Positions 1-54,275 of a stretch of 64,000 nucleotides of DNA are shown here, piece by piece. Source of the stretch: Anagrus nilaparvatae (Eukaryota > Arthropoda > Insecta > Hymenoptera > Mymaridae); the NCBI GenBank assembly GCA_022575985.1, contig JAKSXM010000238.1, forward strand, positions 13,658,001 through 13,722,000. Direction: 5' to 3'. The translations under genes and the position numbers were made by a program. Each line of letters opens with the position of its first letter. The first letter of the stretch is position 1. The notes beneath the pieces are model-generated. The model saw only the letters and a list, made by a program, of their open reading frames with translations. It ran no database searches and had not been told where the DNA came from.

Positions 1-1122
1 TTTTACATATTTCGATTAACAAATCATCACGTATAATCAAATCTGATAAGAAAGTGTCTTTTAAAAAAAAAAAAATATTTTTTTATTTAAATTTTCATGT
101 TTAGGAGACATTGTGATTTAAATGAATGATGGTCCCTGAAAAAAATGATGATTGAAAATATTTCTGAAGGTAAATAACAAATAAAAACAATTTTTCATAA
201 ACATGAATTTAAAAAGTTTTTATTATACATATTAAAAAAATGTAAATAAAAAGATAAATAAAAAAATATAAATTTTTTATAAAAATCATCATATACTATA
301 AAACTAATATCTCATTTAAAAAGTCTTTAGATTAACGTCTTTTTTGCATGTTTTTTAAAAACAAAGTATATATCCTTTATAACACATTAAAACAAAAAAG
401 TAAAGGTATTAAAAAAAAAAGTGAAGAAGAAGTAGAAGTAGAAGAATAAATTTGAGAAAAAAAAAAGCTCAATATTATAAAGTCAACGTGGTTGTCAAAG
501 AAACCGTTAAAGCGCATTTCAATATTTATCGCATGATAAGATTGCATTAAGACCAATTTTATTGATAAACTTTATATACATATATGCGTTTAAATACTCA
601 CTGCAAATGATAATGCAATGCAAGTAAATACATAAAAAAGAAGTAAAGAAATCTTTCGGTAATCATATTTTATGGTACAATATGATACATTAGTCCGGCT
701 ACTGTTTTAAAATCCTTGCAAGCTCCTAGAGCTACAATTTACCGAAAAATTAGGTTCTTCAAATTTCAGATTTTTAAAGCTCTGATAGTAAACCTGTCAA
801 TTTTTTTATAATCCATACCCACCCAGCAAAAACTAACTTTTTAAAACAAAAGCTACCAGACTAATGTATCAGAAGAAGGTCAAAGTTCAAAAGAGGTAAA
901 CAAATTAACTTTTTAATACATAAAATTTATTTTAAATGTAATAACATATCTTTAAAAAATGATCAAAAATTTATTTTTAAAAAATATTGATAACATGAGT
1001 ATTTATAAAAAAAATCTTATATAATTAAAACTATTATCACATAAATATTATATATACATATATCAAAAAAAAAAGAAACAAAAAAAAGTTAGAGAGTCGT
1101 AAAAAGAAAAAATTAATATAAA
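1..1122. other. AT-rich intergenic region
   Basis: No coding sequence is recognisable. The stretch is dominated by A/T runs and short stop-rich frames. Its right part (about 900-1122) should hold the 3' UTR and poly(A) signal of the minus-strand gene that ends at 1123: TTTATT (AATAAA on the minus strand) occurs near 926 and 967. Nothing else can be supported. Confidence 0.5.
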
Positions 1123-2439
1123 TTATTGCACAACAGCCAATGGTGGTTTGTGTTGTACAGGCCATATAAAATTAAAAAATCTTCTTAATGGTAATTGTAA
1201 ATATGAATAAACACAATATGGTAATGGATCCCAATAAACGAACAATGATTCTCTTTTATTTATTTTTTTATCTAATAAATTTTTATCTATCAAGTATAAT
1301 GGATCACAACGACGTATTAAATTTTTGTTATTTTGACAATGTATTCTGTATTTGCATTGTTCAAACCATAATTGTCTACAATGTATGTATTTTAAACATA
1401 AATATGGCAAACCAATACCAACTTTACAACTTATTGGTATTAAATTATTTGAATTTTTATTATACGTTGACATTTTAATCAATCTAAAATTTAAATAGCC
1501 ACTTATGCGTCCAGCGACACCGGTTGCGAAAAATTGTTCTAACCAATTTTCAACTTTTGATTCGTATTCAGCAACTAATATGCCTTTGCTTTCGTCGATC
1601 AATGAACATGTTACATTTGCTAATAATTTACCATCTCTGACGCATGTACATGTTATGTATTGGGCACTTCCTAAAATCAATGGATTTTGAGCACTGGCTA
1701 TCAATTCTTCGTAATATCTCTGCTGTTCTGGATTGCACAAACCAGCCTGAGTAGCGAGTTTCAGAAGTTCTGTTGGATTCCCGAGCATTAATAAGTCTGC
1801 AGTGTCTGGTATCAAACATTCGCAACCCAAAGCCTCCAAATGAGATTTTGCGATGCTGTCGTAATAAGCTGAGCTGCTAGAAACTGGAATGTAATGGCTT
1901 ACATTTTCTTTTTCCACTATTTCAACGAGTGCACGGACATAAGTTGTAATCCCTTGTGTGCTAGGATTCGGCAGAGAGTAATAAGATGAACAAGTTACAG
2001 AAAAACGTGCCAATCCTAACAGATCTTCTTGTTCGCAAATAATGACCTTGGCTCCAGCTTGTGATAAATTACGTGCTAGATGAACAGCTTGGACTGTGCT
2101 ACCGCCGCTTATAAGAATCACACGTTCGTTCTTGTCAGATGAAGACGATGATCTTAGAGATGCTGCTGAAGGTAATGCAGTTATCGATACTGGAGTTGGT
2201 ATAGCCGGACCAGCCAATTTTAAGAGACCTAGTGATAATTTAGCCATTAACCAAAGTAAACATATCCAAGCAGATAACGATGCAGCTGGAGCAAGCAGTA
2301 AAAATGCCAGAAATTTTCTCGAAACTCTCAAGAGGCTTGACAACAGACGTTGCATGTAACTAGGTCGTGACATTTTTTTAAAAAATATTTTTGATTTATG
2401 ATAACGATGATGAAATGAATGCTGATAATAATTTTTCAA
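1123..2439 (-). CDS. membrane-anchored ATP-grasp-like protein (single exon)
   Basis: Uninterrupted 438-codon frame. A long hydrophobic stretch at about residues 40-75 looks like one or two membrane segments. It is followed by a Ser/Thr/Pro-rich linker and then, from about residue 106, a Rossmann-like stretch (VILISGG, then AGAKVIICE) resembling the pre-ATP-grasp fold that precedes ATP-grasp ligase domains. The C-terminus has a YWDPLPY motif and a hydrophobic tail, which I associate with this little-studied family of eukaryotic membrane-bound ATP-grasp-like proteins. The ATP-grasp catalytic core itself is not obvious, so the enzyme activity and substrate are unknown. Met23 (about 2373) could be the true start, because residues 1-22 are low complexity and rich in His, Tyr and Lys. 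The gene is head-to-head with the ANKRD49 homologue. The gene being real is more certain than its family. Confidence 0.7.
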   Translation of the reverse strand: MKNYYQHSFHHRYHKSKIFFKKMSRPSYMQRLLSSLLRVSRKFLAFLLLAPAASLSAWICLLWLMAKLSLGLLKLAGPAIPTPVSITALPSAASLRSSSSSDKNERVILISGGSTVQAVHLARNLSQAGAKVIICEQEDLLGLARFSVTCSSYYSLPNPSTQGITTYVRALVEIVEKENVSHYIPVSSSSAYYDSIAKSHLEALGCECLIPDTADLLMLGNPTELLKLATQAGLCNPEQQRYYEELIASAQNPLILGSAQYITCTCVRDGKLLANVTCSLIDESKGILVAEYESKVENWLEQFFATGVAGRISGYLNFRLIKMSTYNKNSNNLIPISCKVGIGLPYLCLKYIHCRQLWFEQCKYRIHCQNNKNLIRRCDPLYLIDKNLLDKKINKRESLFVYWDPLPYCVYSYLQLPLRRFFNFIWPVQHKPPLAVVQ

Positions 2440-3306
2440 TTAAGACATTTCTTTAACATTTATTTAAAAACTAAACAAAAAAAACTTCCAGCTTTCTAAT
2501 AATAAAATGAATAATATAAAAAATTTAATGATCCATTTAGTATGGTAACATAAATATAACTGAATGATTTTCAATAAATGAAATAATTTTTTAACAAATC
2601 TTCATAAATTGATAATACTTTATATTTACGTAATTTTTCTTATTCTTTTCCTCAAATGCGTCTTTGTTAGTCAAATGTTATATTTTAATTAAAATATATG
2701 TTTGACAGAATTATAAAAAAAAAAAAAATTAAAAAAATTTCGTCTTATCTAATCATTCCTTGCACTTTCATGCTGCTAATTATGCATATATATAATTTTA
2801 ATTTTAGTATTTATAAATCTTTTATATAATTTTAATTTACAGTATGAATTTTTTTCTCATTATCATTTCAATTTTTAATTTATATATAAAATTTTTAGAT
2901 TTTTCAATATAAAAAAATATGGAAAATTTAAAATATAAAATTAAAAGTATCTAAGATTTTTTTAAAGATTCAGTAGAAAAAGTAAGTCATAGTCAGACAA
3001 GATAATTGATACAGTCTCAAGGTCTAATGTATATTTTTAGTAAAGTTTATTTTTATAATTTCATGCATAATTATTTAAAACACTATGATAAGTATTTAAA
3101 AAATGTACTTCTAATAATTAATAAAAAAGAATATTTATATATATTATAAAGTACGAATAATTTAAAATTTTTAAAATTGCGAAAGTGACGTCAATTGCGC
3201 GCGCCTGCTTTCTTATACTTACCGGCTGAAAAATCAAAACAAATGTGTTTGATGTTTGTATACAAAACATTGCAACGCGTCTATATTTTTTATTAAATAA
3301 TATAAA
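2440..3306. promoter_or_regulatory. divergent promoter region with CRE-like site
   Basis: This is the 867-bp interval between two divergent genes. It is AT-rich except for a short GC-rich island at about 3180-3230. The island contains a perfect palindromic TGACGTCA (3186-3193, the CREB/ATF consensus) followed by a GCGCGC stretch that resembles part of an NRF1 site. It lies 110-120 bp upstream of the ANKRD49 start codon, a plausible core-promoter position. No further elements were recognised in 2440-3180. Confidence 0.45.
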
Positions 3307-4129
3307 ATGTCTTCTTCAGGTGATGATAATGATGAATTAGAAGATTTAGAAGAACTAAGGGATAAAATTTTAAAAACTTCCAGTTCAGATCAAATGCAAG
3401 TTAGTGCTTGGGATGATGATAATGAAGGAATAGAAGAAAGTAGAGCTCCTACAGGTTATGTTTCATGCTTGCTAAATAAATTAAATTTGATAAAATAAAT
3501 ATACATACTTTAAAATTTAGCTAAAAATGGTTTAAATTTTACTCATTATTTTATTCTTTATTTTTAGATGTGGCACAAAAAGAAATTTTAGAAGCAGCGG
3601 AAAAAGGTGATCTAGAGAAAGTAAAATCTCTCTTTGACACAGATCCTACACTTATTACATGCACAGATGAAGATGGGTATACTCCATTACACAGAGCATG
3701 TTATGGAAATCATGTTCCTGTAGTAGAAGTAAGTACTTCTGAATCTTTGTCAACTTGAATTAGTTTCTAATGAATGATTTGAATGTTGTTTAGTTTTTAC
3801 TAAACTCAGGTGCAAAAATTAATGCCAAAACACAAGATGATTGGCAGCCACTACATTCTGCATGTTGCTGGAATAATGTTGAATGTGCTTCGATACTAAT
3901 ATCTCGAGGCGCTGATATTAATGCTAAAAGCAAAGGCGAACAAACACCATTGCATTTAGCCTGTAATAATTCTAATAATTCGGCTATGTTACAATTGCTT
4001 TTATTACATCCTGAAACTAATCCATTTATAAAAAATTCAAGTGGAGATACTCCTGAGGATATAGCCAAAAGAAATGGAAAATATTATCCTCTGTTTGAAA
4101 TTACAGAACCGTGCCTTAACGAATTTTAA
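3307..4129 (+). CDS. ANKRD49: ankyrin repeat domain-containing protein 49 homologue
   Basis: Three exons: 3307-3454, 3568-3728 and 3794-4129, with GT-AG introns of 113 and 65 bp. The joined length is 645 nt, in frame, giving 214 residues. An acidic N-terminus (DDNDELEDLEELRD) is followed by ankyrin repeats. Repeat signatures are visible as DEDGYTPLHRACYGNHVPVVE, then DDWQPLHSACCWNNVECASILISRGADINAK, then TPLHLAC. The C-terminus (PLFEITEPC) has the Leu-Phe-Glu-Ile ending typical of ANKRD49 rather than of ankyrin proteins in general. Vertebrate ANKRD49 is a small nuclear ankyrin protein linked to spermatogenesis; its biochemical role is not settled. The gene is divergent from the ATP-grasp-like gene and convergent with LYST. 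Confidence 0.88.
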
Positions 4130-4668
4130 AAAAATTAATTTATTTAATTGTTTTAGTATTATAAGGTACATACTTTATTTACAATTTGTATAATTACTTA
4201 GTTTTTAGAAAATGTAACTTATTTATAATATATATATGTATATAAAATACATCAGCTTATTAAATTTCAAGAATAACTAACAATATTTTTATATTCTGCC
4301 AAAAAAAAAAGAAGACAAGAGTAAATAACTTGTTTGTTAACTATGAGTTTCAAAATATATTGGTATAAGTTAGTTACTATCTTCTTCTTTTATACATCAG
4401 TATCATGTTAAACTCATCAAATTAATTTATTAAATTTTATACTTATAAGTTAATATTTTTTAACAAGTAATAAAAATAATACTTTGTTTCATATATAAAT
4501 TTTAATATGTACAAATATTTCACATAAAATACCTAAATTATACGTAATAACATTATTATTTATAAATATTTAAATAAAAAAACATTCAATAAATTAATAA
4601 TATTAATTATTTTTGGACACTTTTTACAAAAACAAAATTTATACCTATTTATTATAAAATGTACAATC
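4130..4668. other. convergent 3' intergenic region
   Basis: AT-rich spacer between the stop codon of the ANKRD49 homologue and the stop codon of LYST, carrying the 3' UTRs of both genes. TTTATT at 4648-4653 reads AATAAA on the minus strand, about 16 bp past the LYST stop, and is a possible LYST poly(A) signal. No gene seen. Confidence 0.5.
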
Positions 4669-40800: not shown

Positions 40801-43800
40801 AAGGACAGTGAGTATTGATTGGAGCTTCTTTAAAATTTTTTCCTTAATTTACGAAAATCAAAATTTTTTAATTTTACATTATTAAATGAAATAACTTTTA
40901 ACTTGTTTGTGTAAATAATACAGCCAAAATTCATAGAACATGTTTCAAGTATCTGTTAAAGATACGTAATAATATATAACCATTTTCCTGTACATGGTTT
41001 AGTAACTGGTTCTCATGATTTTAAATTTTGCTTATTTAATATTTTCGTAATTATGACCTAAATGTTATTCTAATTGTAATTACCTAATATCAAATTAATC
41101 TAAGTCCGTAAATTAAAATTGTTAGTCCATTTGCCCCCCCCCCTCAATTCCAAGATTCGACAAGTACCCTTCATCAACAAAATTAAAGATTACCTATAAA
41201 ATGACTAAAACAAACTAAATGAGAAACTTTTTTTTACACATAACAGGCAATCGACCCAGGTAGTTAGAAAATAGAACTTGCAAGTTTAGGTATAGAAACC
41301 ACATTTTTTGGAAAATTTGATTTGAAGGTTTTTAAAACTTTTCTTTAATTAATATACGAATGCATGCATTATATGTGTGAATCCATGATATGTATTTTTG
41401 AATTTGTTATTAATGTTAATATTTCTTACGATTTTGTACCTAAACTTGCAAGTTCGATTTTGTGGCTACCCGATTTCGATTGCTTGTTATGTGTAGAAAA
41501 ATGTTTCTTGGGTAGTTTATTTTGTTATTTTAGGTAAATTTTAATTTTGTTAAGGAGCCCCACCTTAAAGAGAGAGAGAAAATAATATTTATAATTTGTT
41601 CCTTTCAAATTTTTAATTAAATTGGAATATTGAAATTGGTCAATAAGGAACAATACGTGATGTTATTTTTACAAACTTTTTATTGTAAAATTGTCCAAAA
41701 TATTAAATTTTGCTATAATTTCGAATGTCTCATTACATTCCTCTTCAGGCTAAAACATTATTTAAAAAAAGGTTGTTTTTTACAATCTTTTTCAAAAATT
41801 AATTATAATAAAGTTGAAGTATACAAACAAACATACCTAATTTATAAAAACATATAAACATTTTTTTAAAGCAATAAACCTACTCTTTACTTTTATACCA
41901 TATACAGATCTAAAATACTTGTATACCTCAACTAAATTTGAAAATTCTTCTTGACTAATTCTTCTGCATCTTCCCTGCTTGTTCAAAACATCAGTTTTTT
42001 TAAGCTTCTTACTATTTATCTTTTCTTGATCTAACCCGTTGTTGATACCGTCTTTTCTAGTCATTGATCTTGTGATATGTTATATGTTTTTATAAATTAG
42101 GTATGTTTGTTTGTATACTTCAACTTTATTATAATTAATTTTTGAAAAAGATTGTAAAAAACAACCTTTTTTTAAATAATGTTTTAGCCTGAAGAGGAAT
42201 GTAATGAGACATTCGAAATTATAGCAAAATTTAATATTTTGGACAATTTTACAATAAAAAGTTTGTAAAAATAACATCACGTATTGTTCCTTATTGACCA
42301 ATTTCAATATTCCAATTTAATTAAATTATTTTCTCTCTTGTGTGCTTTCATGAGTTTCTGAATTTTTATAAAAACAATTTATTGATAAACATCAATAATT
42401 AATATAAAATTACTTTTCAGTGTATACGAAGATGTACCAAAAGCTTTCGAAGAGTGGACTAAAAAAGGAAAAAAAATTTATATTTATTCAAGTGGCAGCG
42501 TGAAAGCTCAAAAGCTACTTTTTGGTCACTCAGAACATGGAGATTTATTAAAAGTAAAATAAAAAAAACCTATTCAATTAATGATTAATTTTTACATAAA
42601 ACTTTTTTACATATTTCAGTATATTTCTGGTCATTTTGATACTGAAGTGGGCCCTAAGCAAGAAGCACAAAGTTACAAGGACATTGCTAAAAAAATTGGT
42701 GAAGAGCCATCTTCGATCTTATTCTTTACTGATATTGTTAAAGGTTTGTATTAATATTATCGGTTTAGATAAATTTTTTTTATATAATTTGTGGATTTGA
42801 CTGAATGTTTTGTAAACGAATGCCTCTTTCACAAGCCTTAACTTTTTATCTCATATCTGAAAAATCCAACTTATTTTATATTTAAAATTTTTCAATTTAC
42901 TTTTTGGATCACCATATTCTTATTCAAGTGCATAAAAGTTTGCCTATCTTATTTTTAAAATATCAGTTGCTTTTTAATTTTTTTCCCCTACTTCTTCAAA
43001 ATCTTTTAAATTTTTGGCATGTCTTTGTTTTTAATTTTTTCTTTTCTTAAATCTTGTAGAATAGAAAAATATTTTTCTTTTATTATGCAATCATATCAGA
43101 ATATAATTTTGTAGGGGCGATTAAATTGGAAGTAGATAAAGAATGGGCGTTTGGCATAAATGTGGTGGGGGGAGGAGTGGTGGTGGGGGAAGCCGATGGT
43201 GAGGGTAACGTCAGCCGTGCAGTTGCACGAGAGGTTTTCGCGAGTCCTCCATTTTTTTAATGAAATTGCACAAGATGGCGGCCCACGGATGCGTTATCCA
43301 AGATGGCGGCCCACATCGTGCAGTTGCACTATAGGTTATATCGGTCCTAGCAGTTTCAAGATCCAAGATGGCGGCCCACGTGGTACAGTTGCACTATAGG
43401 TTAAGTCGGTCCAAATAGTTATATGATCCAAGATGGCGGCCCACGTGGTACAGTTGCACTATAGGTTAAGTCGGTCCAAATAGTTATATGATCCAAGATG
43501 GCGGCCCACGTGGTACAGTTGCACAAGTGGTTTCCGTCATATTTTTTTTTTGGTTAAGATCCCCTCCCCCTTTTTAATCAACAGTATGGCGGACATACAA
43601 GAGAGGTTATGGGTGTAAATCCAAGACGACCGCTTACCAGATGTCGGTAAAGTAGTTTTGTTTTTTATCAAACGTCGGTAAATTAGCATTTTTAGTTTTT
43701 CCTCTACATATAAATGCTTTGTATGATATTAATTTTATCTTTTCTTTAAAACTTATAAATAACACTTACAATTTATAAAAAAAGTTGAAAATGACTCAGG

Positions 43801-46800
43801 AATTTTTTTTATTTACACGTATACTTTAAAACTTTTTAACTCCTGAGTCATTTTCAACTATAGTCAATTTAATTTTACGTTCTTATATAGTAAGTAAAAT
43901 AGTATTTTACCACTTGCGAGAAAAAAGTTAACACGCCCTCTATCGGATAATTCTTGAAATTTTTATGAAAATCCGCGCAGTTTATGTAAAATTGGCGCCA
44001 ACTATTTAAAAAACTAAATTTATTAACATAATCTCAAAATATTTTTATTTTTATTTTTTTATTTTTTGATAAAGTTAATACATAACCTTAATTTTTATTT
44101 TTATTCATTACATAAAATAAAGACTTTTATTTTGTTCCTTAAAGTTACATTTGTTATAAATGGTATTAAATAAATTAAAGCAATGTTTATTCATTTAAAT
44201 AAGTATTTATTTTTTTTTTTTTTATATTCTTAAAAACACATTAATTAATATATAATTTTAGCTGTCCTTAATTCTTCGATTATTAACTTAATTTCATTAT
44301 CATGACCAATAAATCCATGTTCTCTCTCTTCCACTAATACTCTCAGACGATCAACAAGTTCATTTGGATCATCCCAATTGTCATAATCGAATGATGAGTC
44401 GATGGTATCACTACATGTTGATGTTGTACCGTAAGCCGAGGAATATAAAAAATTTTGATCTATAGAACTTTTAAAACTCTGATTTTTATTGAATGTTTGA
44501 TCAGCTTCATTCATATTAAAATTTTCTTGAGGTGAATTATTTTGACTATTGTTTAGGTATCTTGTTTGTTTCAAATTATTTCTCATAGGTTTATTGCTAG
44601 TAAATGATGAATCGATCGTGTTTACTCCTATACTTCGAACAGATTTTTCTGTATTCGTTGCCTTATCACAAAAAGTTTTTTCATTATCCGGTTTTTCAAA
44701 CTCAAATAATTTTTTGATAGAGTCGTATTTTGTTTCTTCTTGCAATGTGTTTAAATCATCATCATCATCGTCATTACTTGTTTCCATATGACAAGATTTA
44801 GATGAATTCTCATACTTTTTCTGATCAAAATTTTCATCTTTTAACGATTTATAATCTTTTGAATGATTGTGTACAATATTCATATGTGTGATAGAATTCG
44901 CAATGATTAAAACTTTTGCCTTACACATTTTGTGTACACATCTCCATACATCACCTGAACGAATTTTCCAACCAAAGCGATACATTTGATTATCTATCTT
45001 TTTAAGCTGCCTACCTTTTCGACTAAGTAAATCTTCCGATGTTAACATTTTGAGATTATGTTTTATACTGACAAAGTAATAGGAATGAATGTAACTATAT
45101 AACAAAACAAATTATGTTCATAATTCGATAATCTTCGATAATATTTTTATATTTACTAACTTCACATACTTTCGGTAATTATCAGCAAACTTCATAATAG
45201 TTTATTTAAGTTAGATGATAAGTAAACTAAAAAGTGGCGCTAACTATACTAAAAATTGCGCTAACTATATAAAAATTGCGCTAACTATACTAAAAAGTGG
45301 CGCTAAGTATATAAAATTTGTGCAAACTATACTAAAAATTGCGCAAACTATATAAAAATTGCGTTAACTAATTAAAAATTGCGCTAACTATACTAAAAAG
45401 TGGCGCTAAGTATATAAAATTTGTGCAAACTATACTAAAAATTGCGCAAACTATATAAAAATTGCGCTAACTAATTAAAAATTGCGCTAACTATACTAAA
45501 AATTGCGCTAACTATATAAAAATTGCGCTTACTATTTAAAAATTGCGCTAACTATACTAAAAAGTGGCGCTAAGTATATAAAATTTGTGCAAACTATACT
45601 AAAAATTGCGCAAACTATATAAAAATTGCGCTAACTAATTAAAAATTGCGCTAACTATACTAAAAATTGCGCTAACTATTTAAAAATTGCGTTAACTATA
45701 TAAAAATTGCGCTAACTATACTAAAAATTGCGCTAACTATTTAAAAATTGCGCTAACTATATAAAAATTGCGCTAACTATACTAAAAATTGCACAAACTA
45801 TATAAAAATTGCGCTAACTATTTAAAAATTGCGCTAACTATACTAAAAATTGCACAAACTATACTAAAAATTGCGCTAACTATATAAGAATTGCGCTAAC
45901 TATATAAGAATTGCGCTAACTATACTAAAAAGTGGCGCTAAGTATATAAAATTTGTGCAAACTACTTAAAATCTAAAATTGTTTATATAACCTCAAAATT
46001 TTTTTATTTACTAATAAAGTTAATACATAACCTTAAAATTTTTTTAATCATTAATTACATAACCTAAGACTTTTATTTCATTAAAGTTAAATTTTTTATA
46101 AAAGGTATTAAATAAATTAAAGTCATTTTTATTCATTTAAATAATTATTTATTATTATTAATCTTATAAAATAGTACACAAATAGTTTAACAAAGCATGA
46201 CATATTTTAAATTAAAATTTTTTTAAAACATTCTTTACAATTTTTAATCATTGGAGATATTCTATTGTTGTTGTGATCATGAATTGTGCAAACTTTTCTC
46301 ATCTGAAATTCATCATCTTGTTGACACTCTTCAGGAAGTAAATCCCAGCATTTATCAATACAATATTCAGCAAAGTGACTGATGAGTAATTCTCGATGAG
46401 CTCACTTTTTTATACTATTTTCTTGACCTCGCCACTGATTGGCTTATATTGTATCATGCGGTCGTGTAATATTAGACAGTACGCCTCTGTATTTGCTGGG
46501 AATTGAGCGCTACTTTCAAATTCTAAGCGTACGTCTACTGGAGCATACTTCAGAGACTCAATTTGTTTGGAACAATCTATTATTACCAATGGCGCCTTAT
46601 TCAAAAAATCTTTTCTGTTGAGTATTACTTCAGAAGTTTCTTTACCATAATAGCTTACTTGAAAATTGGTAAACATATTGTACAAAATTGAATATTTATT
46701 TTGAGCTATATTCAAATTTAAATTTTCGTGTGGATAACATTGCGAATTCAAGTACAGTTTTACGTTGGTTAAATTAATATGATCAAATACACTCGCATTT

Positions 46801-49800
46801 TGATCTATTTTATTACCACGATTCGTTTGAAATCCAATAATCACATATCTTGGTTTTTCCATTTGTGTTGATGTTTTAACTGTCCAGACATGTTTTGTAG
46901 CTGCTGGGAGACTTGGACAATGAAAAAGTTCTCTTGATTGAAAAATTATTGGGAGATATGGATCTTTTTCAATAAATCTTATCAATTCAGCCTTTTGTTT
47001 ATCTGCTAACAGAATTTTAGGCATCTCCCAAGTCAATGAGGTAATTGTAATGGCAACATTTTCAGCAGCATCTCCTCGAATTTTCATAACTGCATTCGTA
47101 TCTTGATTTGATCTTGTAAAGTATAAATCGTGTCTCATGTTTACAATCATTTTTCGATTATGCTCAGCGACTCCGAAAATCATACTCAGAGGTATCAAAA
47201 CTTCAAAATTTCCATTATCATCAACTAAAGATTGTTCATTATCAAATAGCCAACCAGCATTTTCCAAAAATTTTTGTTGTGTTGGAGTGTATGATGGATA
47301 ACCTTTCATAAGTGTACTAATACCAACGTTATTACAACGATCGATAAGTTGCCCGTTAAGTTCATATTTTATTTCTGAGAACAAATGACAGATGGCGTTG
47401 TTGACTAGTATTGTATTTACTACTTTACCACCAGCAGCTAATCGAATTTTGCCTTGAATGTGTATAAAACTTTTTGACGATTCTATCACTCACTATGAAA
47501 TACATTCACATCGGCCTTATGCTACAAGTTCATATCAAAATAACGATACGATTCATATAACTATTCAACATCAGGATCAATTACTTTTACCGTCAAAAAG
47601 TTTTATACACATTCAAGGCAAAATTCGATTAGCTGCTGGTGGTAAAGTAGTAAATACAATACTAGTCAACAACGCCATCTGTCATTTGTTCTCAGAAATA
47701 AAATATGAACTTAACGGGCAACTTATCGATCGTTGTAATAACGTTGGTATTAGTACACTTATGAAAGGTTATCCATCATACACTCCAACACAACAAAAAT
47801 TTTTGGAAAATGCTGGTTGGCTATTTGATAATGAACAATCTTTAGTTGATGATAATGGAAATTTTGAAGTTTTGATACCTCTGAGTATGATTTTCGGAGT
47901 CGCTGAGCATAATCGAAAAATGATTGTAAACATGAGACACGATTTATACTTTACAAGATCAAATCAAGATACGAATGCAGTTATGAAAATTCGAGGAGAT
48001 GCTGCTGAAAATGTTGCCATTACAATTACCTCATTGACTTGGGAGATGCCTAAAATTCTGTTAGCAGATAAACAAAAGGCTGAATTGATAAGATTTATTG
48101 AAAAAGATCCATATCTCCCAATAATTTTTCAATCAAGAGAACTTTTTCATTGTCCAAGTCTCCCAGCAGCTACAAAACATGTCTGGACAGTTAAAACATC
48201 AACACAAATGGAAAAACCAAGATATGTGATTATTGGATTTCAAACGAATCGTGGTAATAAAATAGATCAAAATGCGAGTGTATTTGATCATATTAATTTA
48301 ACCAACGTAAAACTGTACTTGAATTCGCAATGTTATCCACACGAAAATTTAAATTTGAATATAGCTCAAAATAAATATTCAATTTTGTACAATATGTTTA
48401 CCAATTTTCAAGTAAGCTATTATGGTAAAGAAACTTCTGAAGTAATACTCAACAGAAAAGATTTTTTGAATAAGGCGCCATTGGTAATAATAGATTGTTC
48501 CAAACAAATTGAGTCTCTGAAGTATGCTCCAGTAGACGTACGCTTAGAATTTGAAAGTAGCGCTCAATTCCCAGCAAATACAGAGGCGTACTGTCTAATA
48601 TTACACGACCGCATGATACAATATAAGCCAATCAGTGGCGAGGTCAAGAAAATAGTATAAAAAAGTGAGCTCATCGAGAATTACTCATCAGTCACTTTGC
48701 TGAATATTGTATTGATAAATGCTGGGATTTACTTCCTGAAGAGTGTCAACAAGATGATGAATTTCAGATGAGAAAAGTTTGCACAATTCATGATCACAAC
48801 AACAATAGAATATCTCCAATGATTAAAAATTGTAAAGAATGTTTTAAAAAAATTTTAATTTAAAATATGTCATGCTTTGTTAAACTATTTGTGTACTATT
48901 TTATAAGATTAATAATAATAAATAATTATTTAAATGAATAAAAATGACTTTAATTTATTTAATACCTTTTATAAAAAATTTAACTTTAATGAAATAAAAG
49001 TCTTAGGTTATGTAATTAATGATTAAAAAAATTTTAAGGTTATGTATTAACTTTATTAGTAAATAAAAAAATTTTGAGGTTATATAAACAATTTTAGATT
49101 TTAAGTAGTTTGCACAAATTTTATATACTTAGCGCCACTTTTTAGTATAGTTAGCGCAATTCTTATATAGTTAGCGCAATTCTTATATAGTTAGCGCAAT
49201 TTTTAGTATAGTTTGTGCAATTTTTAGTATAGTTAGCGCAATTTTTAAATAGTTAGCGCAATTTTTATATAGTTTGTGCAATTTTTAGTATAGTTAGCGC
49301 AATTTTTATATAGTTAGCGCAATTTTTAAATAGTTAGCGCAATTTTTAGTATAGTTAGCGCAATTTTTATATAGTTAACGCAATTTTTAAATAGTTAGCG
49401 CAATTTTTAGTATAGTTAGCGCAATTTTTAATTAGTTAGCGCAATTTTTATATAGTTTGCGCAATTTTTAGTATAGTTTGCACAAATTTTATATACTTAG
49501 CGCCACTTTTTAGTATAGTTAGCGCAATTTTTAAATAGTAAGCGCAATTTTTATATAGTTAGCGCAATTTTTAGTATAGTTAGCGCAATTTTTAATTAGT
49601 TAGCGCAATTTTTATATAGTTTGCGCAATTTTTAGTATAGTTTGCACAAATTTTATATACTTAGCGCCACTTTTTAGTATAGTTAGCGCAATTTTTAATT
49701 AGTTAACGCAATTTTTATATAGTTTGCGCAATTTTTAGTATAGTTTGCACAAATTTTATATACTTAGCGCCACTTTTTAGTATAGTTAGCGCAATTTTTA

Positions 49801-52200
49801 TATAGTTAGCGCAATTTTTAGTATAGTTAGCGCCACTTTTTAGTTTACTTATCATCTAACTTAAATAAACTATTATGAAGTTTGCTGATAATTACCGAAA
49901 GTATGTGAAGTTAGTAAATATAAAAATATTATCGAAGATTATCGAATTATGAACATAATTTGTTTTGTTATATAGTTACATTCATTCCTATTACTTTGTC
50001 AGTATAAAACATAATCTCAAAATGTTAACATCGGAAGATTTACTTAGTCGAAAAGGTAGGCAGCTTAAAAAGATAGATAATCAAATGTATCGCTTTGGTT
50101 GGAAAATTCGTTCAGGTGATGTATGGAGATGTGTACACAAAATGTGTAAGGCAAAAGTTTTAATCATTGCGAATTCTATCACACATATGAATATTGTACA
50201 CAATCATTCAAAAGATTATAAATCGTTAAAAGATGAAAATTTTGATCAGAAAAAGTATGAGAATTCATCTAAATCTTGTCATATGGAAACAAGTAATGAC
50301 GATGATGATGATGATTTAAACACATTGCAAGAAGAAACAAAATACGACTCTATCAAAAAATTATTTGAGTTTGAAAAACCGGATAATGAAAAAACTTTTT
50401 GTGATAAGGCAACGAATACAGAAAAATCTGTTCGAAGTATAGGAGTAAACACGATCGATTCATCATTTACTAGCAATAAACCTATGAGAAATAATTTGAA
50501 ACAAACAAGATACCTAAACAATAGTCAAAATAATTCACCTCAAGAAAATTTTAATATGAATGAAGCTGATCAAACATTCAATAAAAATCAGAGTTTTAAA
50601 AGTTCTATAGATCAAAATTTTTTATATTCCTCGGCTTACGGTACAACATCAACATGTAGTGATACCATCGACTCATCATTCGATTATGACAATTGGGATG
50701 ATCCAAATGAACTTGTTGATCGTCTGAGAGTATTAGTGGAAGAGAGAGAACATGGATTTATTGGTCATGATAATGAAATTAAGTTAATAATCGAAGAATT
50801 AAGGACAGCTAAAATTATATATTAATTAATGTGTTTTTAAGAATATAAAAAAAAAAAAAATAAATACTTATTTAAATGAATAAACATTGCTTTAATTTAT
50901 TTAATACCATTTATAACAAATGTAACTTTAAGGAACAAAATAAAAGTCTTTATTTTATGTAATGAATAAAAATAAAAATTAAGGTTATGTATTAACTTTA
51001 TCAAAAAATAAAAAAATAAAAATAAAAATATTTTGAGATTATGTTAATAAATTTAGTTTTTTAAATAGTTGGCGCCAATTTTACATAAACTGCGCGGATT
51101 TTCATAAAAATTTCAAGAATTATCCGATAGAGGGCGTGTTAACTTTTTTCTCGCAAGTGGTAAAATACTATTTTACTTACTATATAAGAACGTAAAATTA
51201 AATTGACTATAGTTGAAAATGACTCAGGAGTTAAAAAGTTTTAAAGTATACGTGTAAATAAAAAAAATTCCTGAGTCATTTTCAACTTTTTTTATAAATT
51301 GTAAGTGTTATTTATAAGTTTTAAAGAAAAGATAAAATTAATATCATACAAAGCATTTATATGTAGAGGAAAAACTAAAAATGCTAATTTACCGACGTTT
51401 GATAAAAAACAAAACTACTTTACCGACATCTGGTAAGCGGTCGTCTTGGATTTACACCCATAACCTCTCTTGTATGTCCGCCATACTGTTGATTAAAAAG
51501 GGGGAGGGGATCTTAACCAAAAAAAAAATATGACGGAAACCACTTGTGCAACTGTACCACGTGGGCCGCCATCTTGGATCATATAACTATTTGGACCGAC
51601 TTAACCTATAGTGCAACTGTACCACGTGGGCCGCCATCTTGGATCATATAACTATTTGGACCGACTTAACCTATAGTGCAACTGTACCACGTGGGCCGCC
51701 ATCTTGGATCTTGAAACTGCTAGGACCGACATAACCTATAGTGCAACTGCACGATGTGGGCCGCCATCTTGGATAACGCATCCGTGGGCCGCCATCTTGT
51801 GCAATTTCATTAAAAAAATGGAGGACTCGCGAAAACCTCTCGTGCAACTGCACGGCTGACGTTACCCCCACCATCGGCTTCCCCCACCACCACTCCTCCC
51901 CCCACCACATTTATGCCAAACGCCCATTCTTTATCTACTATTGGAAATTTAATATAAAAAAGGACAAATAAAAAGCAATAAACAAATAAAAATAATAAAA
52001 TCTGTTAAAATAAATTAGACGATGAAATTGTTTTAAAGTTAGTAAAGCATTTCTTTATTTCAAAGCAATATTTTTTTATAGAAGCTGAAGCTGCAAAATC
52101 TGCAGGGTTGTTAACTTTAATTGTTGTCAGAGAAGGAAACGCGCCCTTAACTAATGAAGATCAAAAATTATTTACTTTAATTGACTCTTTTCCATTTTAA
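34896..52200 (+). CDS. Enoph1: enolase-phosphatase E1, canonical short isoform
   Basis: Exons 34896-35003, 35614-35715, 40611-40807, 42421-42553, 42620-42743 and terminal exon 52082-52200. The joined length is 783 nt, in frame, giving 260 residues, the normal length for animal E1 (MasA). The enzyme is a HAD-superfamily protein of methionine salvage. It enolises and dephosphorylates 2,3-diketo-5-methylthiopentyl-1-phosphate to the acireductone. HAD motif I is [11 protein letters not shown] (Asp24, Glu26), motif II is [11 protein letters not shown] (about 156-166), and the C-terminal acidic motif is FFTDIV (Asp218). The terminal exon encodes the conserved [10 protein letters not shown] segment, then stops. 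AATAAA lies 174 bp downstream (52374-52379). Intron 5 (42744-52081) contains the 8.8-kb palindromic element. Confidence 0.93.
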
Positions 52201-54275
52201 GATTGTAAATTTGGGCATAAAACAAATGGTTCGTTTAACTTTATACCAAGAAGTGTTAAAAATTTCATTTAAAGTAACGGAAGAAAAATACTTTGAAAAA
52301 TATGAAAGAAACACTTTTATTTTTTATATAAAAGCACATTTTTGTTGCTTTTTTATTAAAAATCTATAAATTGAATAAATAATTGCATGATTTTTACTTT
52401 TTGTACATGTGACATAAACTATTCAGATACTTTAATGCTTGGATGAGTGGTTTATGATAAACGTGTAATAATTAATAAATAAGTTTTGCAGCAAATTTTT
52501 TGAGTGTTCTTATTTTTTGAAACTTTAATTAGTACTAATAAGTTTCAGTGATATTCAGGATTTTCTCAATATATTTATTTTATAAAATTAGGTTTAGATT
52601 AAAGAATATTCGTATAATGACTCTTAAAGACCATTTTTTTAAATATTTTTTTGTAGAAGCTGAAGCTGCAATAGCCGCTGGATTGTCTGCAGCCATCACT
52701 TTGAGGGAAGGAAATGCACCCTTAACTGATGAGGAAAAGAAATCATTTACCTTACTTGATTCATTATTAGATTTAAGCTGCGAGGCATCTTGCAAACGTC
52801 AAAAGTTAGACGATGATAACGAAAAAAATAAGCAAGAAACTATTGAAGTTACAAGTTCTTCAGAAATATCCACAGCTGCTGCAGAACCAATGGATACTTC
52901 AGAACAAGAAAAGGTCACAGAGGAAAAATCTGATGTCAAAAATGAAGATGAAAAAAAACCTGAAACTAAGACTAATGGTCAAGTAAAATCTAATGAATCA
53001 GCTACTGTCAAAGATGATGCAGAAGTTAAAATGACACCAAAAATATCAGAGGAAAAATTAACCGAAAATAAAAAAACTGAAAATGAAGAAAAAAAAGAAA
53101 CAGAAATGGAAACGGAGCAAAATCAAGTTGACTCAAAATCTGTAGATACAATTGAAGTTACGAAAGAAGATGATGTAAAATGTGAAAAAGAAAATAAAAA
53201 AGTGGACAATGAAACTGAATTAAAAGATAAAAAGATGGAAGATGTTGATTCTGAAAAAAAACCAGTAGAAGAATCTGTTCAAAAAGAAAAAGAATCATCA
53301 GATGTTGAAATGAAATCTGCAGATTCTGAATCAATATCTAAAGATGAAAAAATCTCAGAAAAACATACTGAGAGTGAAAAAACTGAAATTATTGAAAAAG
53401 TTGAACCTAAAGCCGAAGTTGCAGATTTAGAGGATAAAAAATCCGTAGAAACTGATAAAGCAGAAAACAACGTTGAAAAAAATAAAGAAGAAACAAAGGT
53501 AGACAATGATGTAAAAAAAGATCAAATTTTAGAATCTGAAAAAGAAATTAAAAAAGCTGAAACTGTTGATAATGAAGTTAAGGAAAATGGAACTACAAAA
53601 GAACAGGATTCAAAAGAAGAAGCAGAATCTAAATCGTCAATCGAAAAACAAAAAGAATTAACTAATTCATCTGGAACCGAAAAACCCGATATTTTAAAAG
53701 AGGTGACAGATGAAAAAACAACTGTTACAGAAGAAGTTGACAGTAAAGTTAATAAAAGTGAAAATACTGAAGTAAAAGTAGACAAAAAAACAGACGAAGT
53801 AACTGTGAAAGACAAAATTGAAGTTACAAAGCCCGAGGAAAATAATGTACAAGATAAAATTGAAGACAAAATCAGCAATAGTAAAGCTGATGATAAATGT
53901 GCGCAAGAAAAAACTGAAGTTGATCAGCCAAAAGAAGTTACACAAAAAGAAAATATTAAACCTCCTGCATCTGAAAAACAAGAAGAGCAGTCGAAAGAAT
54001 CAAATTCAATTGTTGAAAAAGATAAAACTATAGTGCCTGAAATTTCCCCAGAAGATAAAGTTATGAATGGATCAGCCACAAATGGAAATTCAAAACTTGA
54101 TGAAGAAAAAGTTTTAAATGGTTCTGAAGAAGTAAAAAAAGCAGAAGAAAAAACTGAAGTTGTTCAAAACGGAAAGACCGAAGAATCCATAACAGAGACC
54201 ATTAAATTAAAAAAAGCTGATGCAATCGCAGATCCTGAAACTGTTACTCCTCCAGTTGTAGCAGCTACATCTTAA
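34896..54275 (+). CDS. Enoph1: enolase-phosphatase E1, long isoform with K/E-rich tail
   Basis: The same five exons joined to a second terminal exon, 52657-54275. The acceptor is TTTTTTTGTAG and the join is in frame: 2,283 nt, 760 residues. This exon begins with a paralogous copy of the enzyme's last segment ([10 protein letters not shown], then [14 protein letters not shown]). It continues into about 500 residues dominated by Lys, Glu, Asp, Ser and Thr. A basic patch KRQKL at about residue 267 may be a nuclear localisation signal. AATAAA occurs at 54322-54327. Long charged tails on E1 are, as I recall, common in insect gene models. The tail is probably disordered and its role is unknown. An ATG-started frame upstream of the acceptor (52548) is intronic. 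Confidence 0.85.
35004..35613. other. E1 intron 1 with tRNA-like SINE relic
   Basis: 610-bp intron. On the minus strand, 35090-35160 contains GGGTTCGATATC, a good RNA polymerase III B-box, preceded by a Cys-loop-like GTTTTGCTCGC. This is probably a fragment of a tRNA-derived SINE. The rest is A/T runs. Confidence 0.35.
35716..38145. other. E1 intron 2, left part
   Basis: AT-rich intron with a (GTAT)n/(GTGT)n microsatellite at about 36451-36505. Moderately complex sequence at 36300-37900 looks like old transposon DNA, but I could not define ends or coding motifs. No gene seen. Confidence 0.45.
38146..38625 (+). mobile_element. tRNA-derived SINE
   Basis: A tRNA-like head at about 38146-38220 has an A-box-like TGTCTCTGTTGG (38156-38167) and a B-box GGTTTGAATCC (38200-38210). 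A non-tRNA body of about 380 bp follows and ends in an (AAT)n tail (about 38598-38625), the usual layout of a SINE. The body includes the stretch AGGAGCTACCTTATAAAAAA. No target duplication was established. Confidence 0.65.
38940..39890 (-). pseudogene. degenerate R2-like non-LTR retrotransposon, 3' part
   Basis: The minus-strand reading carries hallmarks of the C-terminal end of R2-type ORFs. In order these are: a [13 protein letters not shown] segment after the reverse transcriptase; a Cys-Cys-His-Cys knuckle ([18 protein letters not shown]); a restriction-like endonuclease piece with [24 protein letters not shown]; and the terminal [13 protein letters not shown] signature. The reading frame breaks at about 39600, has an in-frame stop around 39306, and is interrupted by a hAT MITE (39019-39165). 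The reverse transcriptase and 5' half are gone, so it is dead. It sits in E1 intron 2, antisense to the gene, rather than in rDNA. Confidence 0.82.
39019..39165. mobile_element. hAT MITE nested in the R2-like relic
   Basis: 147 bp flanked by a perfect 8-bp duplication GGCTCCTC (39011-39018 and 39166-39173). Terminal inverted repeats are CAGTGATGCGCTATGCCG on the left and CAGTGGTGCGCTTTGCCG at the right when reverse complemented, extending to about 24 bp. The 8-bp duplication and CAGTG ends are the hAT superfamily signature. Removing the insert rejoins the R2-like frame through to [13 protein letters not shown], confirming the boundaries. Confidence 0.88.
41176..41552. mobile_element. fold-back element (MITE), about 377 bp
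   Basis: Long imperfect inverted arms of about 115 bp. The left arm is about 41176-41292 (AACAAAATTAAAGATTACC... to CTTGCAAGTTTAGGTA). The right arm is about 41437-41552, reading back ACCTAAACTTGCAAG...TTTTGTT. No coding capacity. Target duplication not defined. Confidence 0.7.
41613..42324. mobile_element. fold-back element with 245-bp arms
   Basis: Arms 41613-41857 and 42080-42324 are inverted copies. Their 75-codon frames (41630-41857 on plus, 42080-42307 on minus) translate identically, so divergence is near zero. The 222-bp centre has a minus-strand frame rich in Lys and Arg (41837-42064) with no known family. Shorter AAGAGAG/CTCTCTT termini may extend the element to about 41566-42340, the left arm having an extra insertion of about 30 bp. 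The frames in the arms are probably not genes. Confidence 0.8.
43271..43505 (+). repeat. left-arm 65-bp repeats with five YY1-like motifs
   Basis: Five copies of CAAGATGGCGGC. The last three are spaced 65 bp apart (CCAAGATG at 43363, 43428 and 43493) within near-identical units that also contain CACGTGGTACAGTTGCAC. AAGATGGCGGC matches the consensus of the zinc-finger factor YY1 (Pho in insects). The units lie 140-375 bp inside the left end. Confidence 0.75.
43784..43858. repeat. left-arm internal hairpin
   Basis: GTTGAAAATGACTCAGGA and its reverse complement TCCTGAGTCATTTTCAAC are separated by about 37 bp. The right arm has the same hairpin at 51212-51286. Confidence 0.7.
44245..45105 (-). 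CDS. FLYWCH-type zinc-finger protein, left-arm copy
   Basis: Frame of 286 codons. Met20 (about 45048, [14 protein letters not shown]) is the more likely start, since residues 1-19 are hydrophobic filler. About residues 28-85 fit a FLYWCH zinc finger: RFGWK, then WRC...C, then IVHNH, giving Trp, two Cys and two His in order. FLYWCH fingers bind DNA or protein and often occur in transposon-derived genes. The remainder is Asn/Ser/Asp-rich and probably disordered, with a C-terminal amphipathic segment ([17 protein letters not shown]). It may regulate the element, but that is inference. Identical to the copy at 49965-50825. Confidence 0.75.
   Translation of the reverse strand: MLYSYIHSYYFVSIKHNLKMLTSEDLLSRKGRQLKKIDNQMYRFGWKIRSGDVWRCVHKMCKAKVLIIANSITHMNIVHNHSKDYKSLKDENFDQKKYENSSKSCHMETSNDDDDDDLNTLQEETKYDSIKKLFEFEKPDNEKTFCDKATNTEKSVRSIGVNTIDSSFTSNKPMRNNLKQTRYLNNSQNNSPQENFNMNEADQTFNKNQSFKSSIDQNFLYSSAYGTTSTCSDTIDSSFDYDNWDDPNELVDRLRVLVEEREHGFIGHDNEIKLIIEELRTAKIIY
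45225..45965. repeat. left-arm 20-24-bp minisatellite
   Basis: More than 30 units of GCGCTAACTATAYTAAAAATT with variants (TGGCGCTAAGTATATAAAATT, TTGTGCAAACTATAC). It sits between the FLYWCH gene and the capsid-like gene, upstream of FLYWCH. The unit lengths of 20, 21 and 24 bp follow a higher-order pattern, and the right arm mirrors it unit for unit. Confidence 0.9.
46207..46401 (-). pseudogene. small Cys/His-rich remnant frame, left arm
   Basis: 64 codons after a stop, without an upstream ATG, just downstream of the capsid-like gene. It has [20 protein letters not shown] and NCKEC, spaced cysteines and histidines suggesting the C-terminal end of a zinc-binding protein whose 5' part is lost, or an exon of a spliced gene. 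Identical to 48669-48863. Confidence 0.5.
46410..47489 (-). pseudogene. double-jelly-roll capsid-like gene, 5'-truncated left copy
   Basis: Same protein as the right copy from its [10 protein letters not shown] onward, but the reading is cut at the arm/loop junction (47479). The loop on this side reads a different sequence, so the N-terminal 40 or so residues are missing and only a GTG in the loop could start it. The family call is discussed under the right copy. Confidence 0.75.
47458..48660 (+). CDS. Polinton-type double-jelly-roll capsid-like protein, right copy
   Basis: 400 codons. The first seven or so codons come from the left arm read antisense, the next 37 from the loop, and the rest from the right arm. 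The original start is therefore lost and the ATG is a by-product of the inversion. The body has features I associate with the double-jelly-roll capsid-like family of insect Polintons: an [13 protein letters not shown] strand, [17 protein letters not shown], and repeated beta-rich segments to the end. The length is 400 residues, shorter than full Polinton major capsid proteins. There is no frameshift. Whether it folds or assembles is unknown. The assignment rests on motif recognition, not on a search. Confidence 0.72.
   Translation: MCIKLFDDSITHYEIHSHRPYATSSYQNNDTIHITIQHQDQLLLPSKSFIHIQGKIRLAAGGKVVNTILVNNAICHLFSEIKYELNGQLIDRCNNVGISTLMKGYPSYTPTQQKFLENAGWLFDNEQSLVDDNGNFEVLIPLSMIFGVAEHNRKMIVNMRHDLYFTRSNQDTNAVMKIRGDAAENVAITITSLTWEMPKILLADKQKAELIRFIEKDPYLPIIFQSRELFHCPSLPAATKHVWTVKTSTQMEKPRYVIIGFQTNRGNKIDQNASVFDHINLTNVKLYLNSQCYPHENLNLNIAQNKYSILYNMFTNFQVSYYGKETSEVILNRKDFLNKAPLVIIDCSKQIESLKYAPVDVRLEFESSAQFPANTEAYCLILHDRMIQYKPISGEVKKIV
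47480..47590. other. 111-bp loop at the palindrome centre
   Basis: The only single-copy part of the element. On the plus strand it continues the capsid-like frame, encoding about 37 N-terminal residues ([17 protein letters not shown] and onward). It therefore shows which side of the inverted duplication kept more of the original gene. Confidence 0.9.
48669..48863 (+). pseudogene. small Cys/His-rich remnant frame, right arm
   Basis: Mirror copy of 46207-46401: 64 codons ending in TAA, following directly after the capsid-like gene, with no ATG at its start. Confidence 0.5.
49105..49845. repeat. right-arm 20-24-bp minisatellite
   Basis: Inverted copy of the array at 45225-45965, with the same length and unit order. 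Confidence 0.9.
49965..50825 (+). CDS. FLYWCH-type zinc-finger protein, right-arm copy
   Basis: Identical in translation to the copy at 44245-45105. The likely start is Met20 (about 50022). The Trp-Cys-Cys-His-His FLYWCH pattern lies near the N-terminus, followed by a disordered Asn/Ser-rich region. Confidence 0.75.
   Translation: MLYSYIHSYYFVSIKHNLKMLTSEDLLSRKGRQLKKIDNQMYRFGWKIRSGDVWRCVHKMCKAKVLIIANSITHMNIVHNHSKDYKSLKDENFDQKKYENSSKSCHMETSNDDDDDDLNTLQEETKYDSIKKLFEFEKPDNEKTFCDKATNTEKSVRSIGVNTIDSSFTSNKPMRNNLKQTRYLNNSQNNSPQENFNMNEADQTFNKNQSFKSSIDQNFLYSSAYGTTSTCSDTIDSSFDYDNWDDPNELVDRLRVLVEEREHGFIGHDNEIKLIIEELRTAKIIY
51565..51799 (-). repeat. right-arm 65-bp repeats with five YY1-like motifs
   Basis: Mirror of 43271-43505; read on plus as GCCGCCATCTTG. 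The two substitutions seen between the arms lie here or just outside: one near 51733 and one near 51867. Confidence 0.75.
51946..52081 (+). other. 3' end of E1 intron 5
   Basis: Short host intron sequence after the palindromic element, ending in TTTTTTTATAG, the acceptor of the short-isoform terminal exon. Without the insertion, intron 5 would be about 0.5 kb. Confidence 0.7.
52374..52379 (+). terminator. poly(A) signal for the short E1 isoform
   Basis: AATAAA 174 bp after the stop codon of terminal exon 52082-52200 and upstream of the second terminal exon. It is well placed to end the short transcript. Confidence 0.6.

Follow-up and report, generated by a model that had tools for sequence, protein, structure and literature searches.

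Palindromic defective genomes are known from adenoviruses, in which they are left-end inverted duplications, and from yeast, in which palindromes derive from pGKL1; for the Polintons, or Mavericks, protein-primed replication has been inferred mainly from their genes. Here we describe an element in the parasitoid Anagrus nilaparvatae, in a 64,000-nucleotide stretch of contig JAKSXM010000238.1 that we analysed as a whole and call the window. The element spans positions 43131-51939 (8,809 bp) and is one inverted repeat nearly end to end; judged by its termini and genes, we identify it as a defective fold-back derivative of a Polinton or adintovirus, and not as an intact Polinton. In the excerpted text of a vertebrate survey, intact Mavericks measure 12,723-24,620 bp and have terminal inverted repeats (TIRs) of 46-1,447 bp, 6-bp target-site duplications (TSDs) and ends that are most commonly (AGT)2//(ACT)2 (PMC8097293). 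Our literature search for non-autonomous and palindromic Polintons gave, among the papers listed, no title or shown abstract that describes a palindromic Polinton; ‘non-autonomous Maverick’ and ‘non-autonomous Polinton’ occurred zero times in the papers listed by one such search, whose term filter may miss papers. Tlr elements had earlier been suggested to be non-autonomous Polinton derivatives, a suggestion that is mentioned and disputed in the excerpted part of PMC4028283.

The two arms, each 4,349 bp long, lie at 43131-47479 (forward strand, first letters AGTAGATAAAG) and 47591-51939 (reverse strand, last letters CTTTATCTACT), so that both termini start with AGTAGATAAAG when read inwards. 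They are separated by a 111-bp loop of capsid-coding sequence (47480-47590). Chance cannot plausibly account for so long an inverted repeat. Perfect 6-bp copies of ATTGGA stand directly outside the two ends, at 43125-43130 and 51940-51945, and the sequences beyond these copies differ between the left and right flank. Direct comparison thus bears out the arm length, loop, ends and 6-bp duplication given by an earlier sequence-only reading of the window. Perfect identity is ruled out: base by base, the arms agree at 4,347 of 4,349 positions, and at the two mismatches, left-arm positions 43202 and 43340, the left arm has an A and the right arm a G.

Several features tie the element to the Polintons. 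It has a 6-bp TSD, TIRs with AG...CT ends, and a double-jelly-roll (DJR) capsid protein of the Polinton/adintovirus type (E 1.3e-101 to the DJR-like domain PF21738 in Pfam) whose listed relatives are hymenopteran wherever an organism is named, and include an adintovirus hexon; the Polinton origin proposed from sequence alone is upheld by this combination. The terminal AGTAGATAAAG/CTTTATCTACT is near, though not exactly, the (AGT)2 motif that the excerpted survey gives for vertebrate Mavericks (PMC8097293), and the element’s total length and the length of its arms both fall outside the vertebrate range. To define coding content, we took open reading frames (ORFs) of at least 60 amino acids in 42500-52600; there are 13, and all 10 within the element were scanned against Pfam, a scan that left aside shorter or broken frames. 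In these 10 ORFs the DJR domain and a FLYWCH zinc finger are the only domains that pass the cut-off, with no integrase, polymerase, ATPase, protease, penton or transposase domain among them, in keeping with the earlier statement that replication genes are absent. With no recognisable genes for replication and integration, the element would depend on functions supplied in trans to move or replicate.

The hexon (the DJR major capsid protein) is encoded on the forward strand at 47458-48660 as an ORF of 400 amino acids that runs through the loop into the right arm. Its mirror copy (46410-47489, reverse strand) is truncated at the N-terminus by the junction and has a 359-residue frame from GTG; the frame is thus open in both arms, with a truncated start in the left copy. 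At E 0.001 or better the hexon has 755 homologues in the protein database, and what follows describes the 120 of these that were listed. They are 397-462 residues long, each covers 99% of the hexon ORF, and identity is 52-64% (52-59% for those with a named organism, among them the hexon of ‘Megastigmus wasp adintovirus’ at 54%). All 35 relatives with a named organism belong to genera that we take to be hymenopteran. The predicted structure has a mean pLDDT (predicted local distance difference test) of 81.7, with residues 1-11 as its single stretch below 50, and its matches among the 50 best structures listed include the capsid proteins of PBCV-1, Sputnik and mavirus; a sequence search of the hexon against the PDB gave no match up to E 10. 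The sequence-only reading had described this gene as a capsid fragment. Coverage by the 120 relatives rules that out: in an alignment of 15 of them only the extreme N-terminus departs, and the hexon is a near-complete protein in which residues 1-5 (MCIKL) derive from the fold-back, in place of about 12 native residues, with the remainder intact.

This N-terminal departure bears on how the palindrome was made. The aligned relatives begin MEExLxIQxPVxFDES, so a wholly native start of the form MCIKLFDDS is ruled out, and we read the ATG of the present hexon ORF as a contribution of the mirrored strand. At the left edge of the loop stands TTTGACG (47473-47479), and at the right edge its reverse complement CGTCAAA (47591-47597); the two pair over 7 nucleotides, or up to 9 should the codon that natively preceded TTTGACG have ended in TT, and we predict a microhomology of TTTGACG, extending at most to TTTTTGACG. 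The left copy falls on codons TTT GAC G(AT), within or across the boundary of the left arm, and these specify residues on which the family agrees (F6 in 14 of 15 relatives, D7 in all 15, and E or D at position 8 in all 15). The right copy lies within the codons for P-S-K, beside S48, and P45 and S48 are invariant in 16 sequences. Because F6, D7, D/E8, P45 and S48 are conserved, TTTGACG and CGTCAAA are most likely native on both sides. Upstream of TTTGACG, by contrast, the sequence is the mirror image, and L5 is absent from the 15 relatives. These codons strongly indicate that the centre is a fold-back, or snap-back, junction at a native inverted microhomology of 7-9 nucleotides, and the microhomology supports the fold-back (hairpin product) origin suggested before. 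The locus has the organisation of a defective palindromic genome of a protein-primed replicon, in that one end is mirrored and joined at a short inverted microhomology, the latter as deduced from codons.

We tentatively favour, at close to an even chance, an origin in which the palindrome arose by snap-back during protein-primed, strand-displacing replication and was then integrated whole by an integrase acting in trans. A strand growing from one terminus would cross the FLYWCH gene and nearly all of the hexon gene and detach at hexon codons 6-8; its free 3′-end would anneal to the complementary TTTGACG site about 111 nucleotides behind on the same strand, in the P-S-K codons, and prime synthesis all the way back to the terminus. 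This would leave a hairpin whose single open terminus bears the origin; one more round of copying could turn it into a linear palindrome of 8.8 kb, each end of which has an origin and an integrase site, and the integrase of a full-length Polinton would insert this molecule as a single unit with a 6-bp duplication. It is the TSD that points to integration in trans by a Polinton integrase. The polymerase of phi29 belongs to the same class (family B) as the one expected here. In multiple displacement amplification (MDA) with phi29, 406 of 475 chimeras were inverted and more than 70% of junctions were primed at complementarity of 2-21 nucleotides, according to the excerpted text of PMC1855051. A source of integrase is plausible in a parasitoid because Mavericks are abundant in such wasps: among class II elements they are heavily represented in the braconids compared and in Nasonia, less so in ants (PMC6035795).

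Several observations weigh against this origin. The same excerpt of the MDA study excludes hairpin self-priming as a major route and attributes the chimeras mainly to displaced strands (PMC1855051). At the centre, the native microhomology is deduced from a protein alignment in which I3 and K4 align with the relatives’ I/V and Q/K/R/L/H, followed by a gap of three columns; the point at which foreign sequence gives way to native can therefore not be placed to the exact residue. Finally, counted from the outer end, the two mismatches stand at offsets 72 and 210, and further in the arms agree over all 4,139 bp. Under uniform placement, the probability that both fall within 210 bp is P = 0.0023, or 0.0047 counting either end, and since snap-back alone predicts a uniform scatter, this clustering counts against it. 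Snap-back fits the mismatches only if the GC-rich terminus mutates readily or if gene conversion later spread outwards from the centre.

Clustered mismatches are what the strongest alternative would explain. On this view the palindrome would have formed in situ: a double-strand break would have destroyed the interior of a resident full-length Polinton with ordinary TIRs, and gap repair templated by a TIR would have restored the locus as a palindrome. The left stump, resected into its TIR, would invade the right TIR, its inverted homologue, and copy inwards through the FLYWCH and hexon genes, after which the copied strand would be joined to the right stump at the 7-9-nucleotide microhomology, with the original TSD kept. 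Such repair predicts the same junction, TSD and microhomology as snap-back. It also predicts that differences are confined to a remnant of the old left TIR and that the newly copied sequence matches throughout, as is seen in the outer 210 bp with both mismatches and in the 4,139 identical base pairs inside them; a TIR of at least 210 bp is within the 46-1,447 bp of the excerpted Maverick survey (PMC8097293). Integration in trans as a single unit, which the sequence-only reading had put forward, therefore fits the data but is unproven, as gap repair from the other TIR leaves the same TSD and centre. Against repair in situ, the route depends on an uncommon accident that breaks the element, on copying over a long tract and on the loss of everything else in the element, and its distinctive support is an interpretation, made post hoc, of two mismatches. 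The GC content of the two outermost 250-bp bins is 0.53 and 0.44, against 0.19-0.37 in the other 16, and this higher GC may raise the mutation rate and so account for the clustering in another way. We also know of no excision gaps of Polintons, which counts against such repair. On balance we regard formation in situ as unlikely, though the rival to be taken most seriously.

The position of the element in a host gene bears on whether the palindrome is real. It occupies 8,809 of the 9,338 bp of a GT-AG intron (42744-52081, forward strand) of the gene for acireductone synthase (enolase-phosphatase E1); when joined, the flanking exons match TIGR01691 (E 6.4e-63) and the structure of the E-1 enzyme, 1yns (E 2.7e-55). 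Of 50 matches to an 872-residue host ORF, the two with a named organism are from Ceratosolen (49% identity) and Eufriesea (41%), presumably a fig wasp and a bee, in keeping with a hymenopteran host. A simple hairpin artefact is disfavoured because the two flanks differ yet belong to one gene. An assembly or amplification artefact can also be imagined, in which phi29 MDA of a tiny insect, or misassembly through TIRs, mirrored one real Polinton end. The element is known here from assembled sequence, a second perfect palindrome lies 0.8 kb away, and MDA does yield inverted chimeras at microhomologies (excerpted in PMC1855051). A snap-back chimera is, however, expected to carry the same flank twice, whereas here the differing flanks share a 6-bp TSD and are parts of one host gene with its intron borders intact, and the arms differ at two positions; taken together, these points make an artefact improbable.

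The second palindrome (41612-41857 and 42080-42325) has perfect arms of 246 bp around a 222-bp spacer and lies in a different intron of the host gene. It is the only pair outside the element among the 25 longest that were listed for the window, out of 69 in all. No TSD was seen at its ends, and its matches to the 8.8-kb element are short and weak (best E 0.005 over 34 bp). An imperfect inverted stretch (69% over 386 columns) was also observed at about 41176-41551. The terminal exon of the host gene is present twice, at 52082-52197 and at 52657-54275, the second copy with a long acidic, lysine-rich extension; the gene appears to have duplicated or alternative last exons.

The second protein of the element is a FLYWCH zinc-finger protein, encoded at 49965-50825 on the forward strand (286 residues from TTG, or 267 from the ATG at 50022) and by an identical mirror copy at 44245-45105 on the reverse strand. 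The zinc finger is detected at E 1.1e-5 in Pfam, and the frame is open in both arms. The last ~50 residues of this protein resemble the C-termini of DUF8207-type proteins. A further set of relatives (P0128-P0240), most of which carry PF26634, named DUF8207 by its source, match this C-terminus in 113 of 113 cases, and in 111 of the 113 the match stops at the relative’s own C-terminus; it covers 45-67 residues at 49-73% identity in 88 relatives, and 80-207 residues at 28-48% in the other 25. The Pfam scan is uninformative on the tail, since it misses DUF8207 also in P0189, a protein for which the database table records that domain. A highly conserved C-terminal module of ~50 residues (...NEI..IIEELR) thus ends proteins with different bodies, FLYWCH here and DUF8207 elsewhere. 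It is reminiscent of a tag that insect Polinton proteins share at their C-termini, and we infer that the DUF8207 proteins are themselves Polinton members. That the element belongs instead to a different family of DNA transposons, one that makes a 6-bp TSD, has very long TIRs and acquired its hexon gene from a Polinton, is very unlikely: FLYWCH domains are frequent outside Polintons and the scanned ORFs contain neither a Polinton integrase nor a polymerase, but they contain no transposase domain either, and the ends, the length of the TSD, the hexon and the DUF8207-type tail all indicate Polintons.

The arms also contain repeats and small motifs. A GC-rich subterminal region (43272-43524, forward strand) holds 65-bp tandem repeats with five copies of AAGATGGCGGCCCAC per arm, at 43272-43509 and mirrored within 51561-51798; the core of AAGATGGCGGCCCAC resembles what we take to be the YY1/Pho binding consensus. 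An AT-rich array of ~35 units of 20 bp (GCGCTAACTATATAAAAATT) occupies 45237-45951 on the forward strand and is mirrored in the right arm. Each half further has one short internal hairpin, GTTGAAAATGACTCAGGA...TCCTGAGTCATTTTCAAC, at 43784-43858 and its mirror, with TGACTCA, presumably the AP-1 consensus.

Scans of IMG/VR with the hexon, the hexon alignment, the subterminal repeat pattern and the DUF8207-type alignment found no relative. A scan of genome contigs found one distant hexon (31% identity; PF21738, E 1.2e-54) on a contig labelled as a Balneolales metagenome-assembled genome (L001, positions 1-4122), which is probably misbinned viral or eukaryotic DNA. A downstream, open-ended ORF on this contig was considered as the start of a Polinton polymerase; this was not confirmed, Pfam showing a Rho_N domain alone, and the contig does not reveal the native neighbourhood of the element’s genes.

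In its present state the element encodes one near-complete hexon, which has lost its native start and upstream region, and two open FLYWCH frames. At present it is a passenger, with both termini available for mobilisation in trans. The computed fold of the central 1,111 nucleotides of a transcript has an energy of -891 kcal/mol, and an intron transcript across the element would form a duplex of up to 4.3 kb, from which small RNAs may be produced. That such copies could help the host to silence related capsid genes by RNA interference is a speculation to which we give little credence. Whether snap-back before integration reflects a general habit, in which Polintons or adintoviruses make palindromic defective genomes and their integrase inserts them whole, giving a mobile ‘snap-back Polinton’ that carries a capsid gene, is a proposal we put a little short of an even call. 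If true, this locus would be a fossil snap-back product with a TSD, and so physical evidence that Polintons replicate by strand displacement and that a linear molecule was integrated in trans. Insect genomes could then acquire very long inverted repeats by this route, and such repeats might be natural hairpin sources of small RNAs against virus-like elements.

Comparison with known systems places the element between several of them. It resembles hymenopteran Polintons and adintoviruses in its 6-bp TSD, AG...CT termini, TIRs, DJR hexon and DUF8207-type tail, and differs from Polintons and Mavericks in its lack of polymerase, integrase, ATPase, protease and penton domains in the scanned ORFs. 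Like the adenovirus and pGKL1 palindromes, it has one terminus mirrored around a short loop, with an origin at both ends; unlike these free replicons, it is chromosomal, has a TSD and retains a capsid gene. Set against the excerpted vertebrate Maverick values, it is short (8.8 kb versus 12.7-24.6 kb) and its arms are long (4,349 bp versus TIRs of 46-1,447 bp; PMC8097293). The inverted chimeras of phi29 MDA likewise arise when a strand-displacing family-B polymerase joins DNA at a short complement, but they are products made in vitro and, in the excerpted text, are primed mainly on displaced 5′ strands (PMC1855051). The mitochondrial invertron plasmids of Podospora and Neurospora are protein-primed linear elements with integrated forms that have long inverted repeats, tentatively attributed to panhandle or racquet intermediates in the excerpted account (PMC1864894); there the repeats are host mitochondrial DNA outside the plasmid, whereas here it is the element’s own interior that is mirrored.

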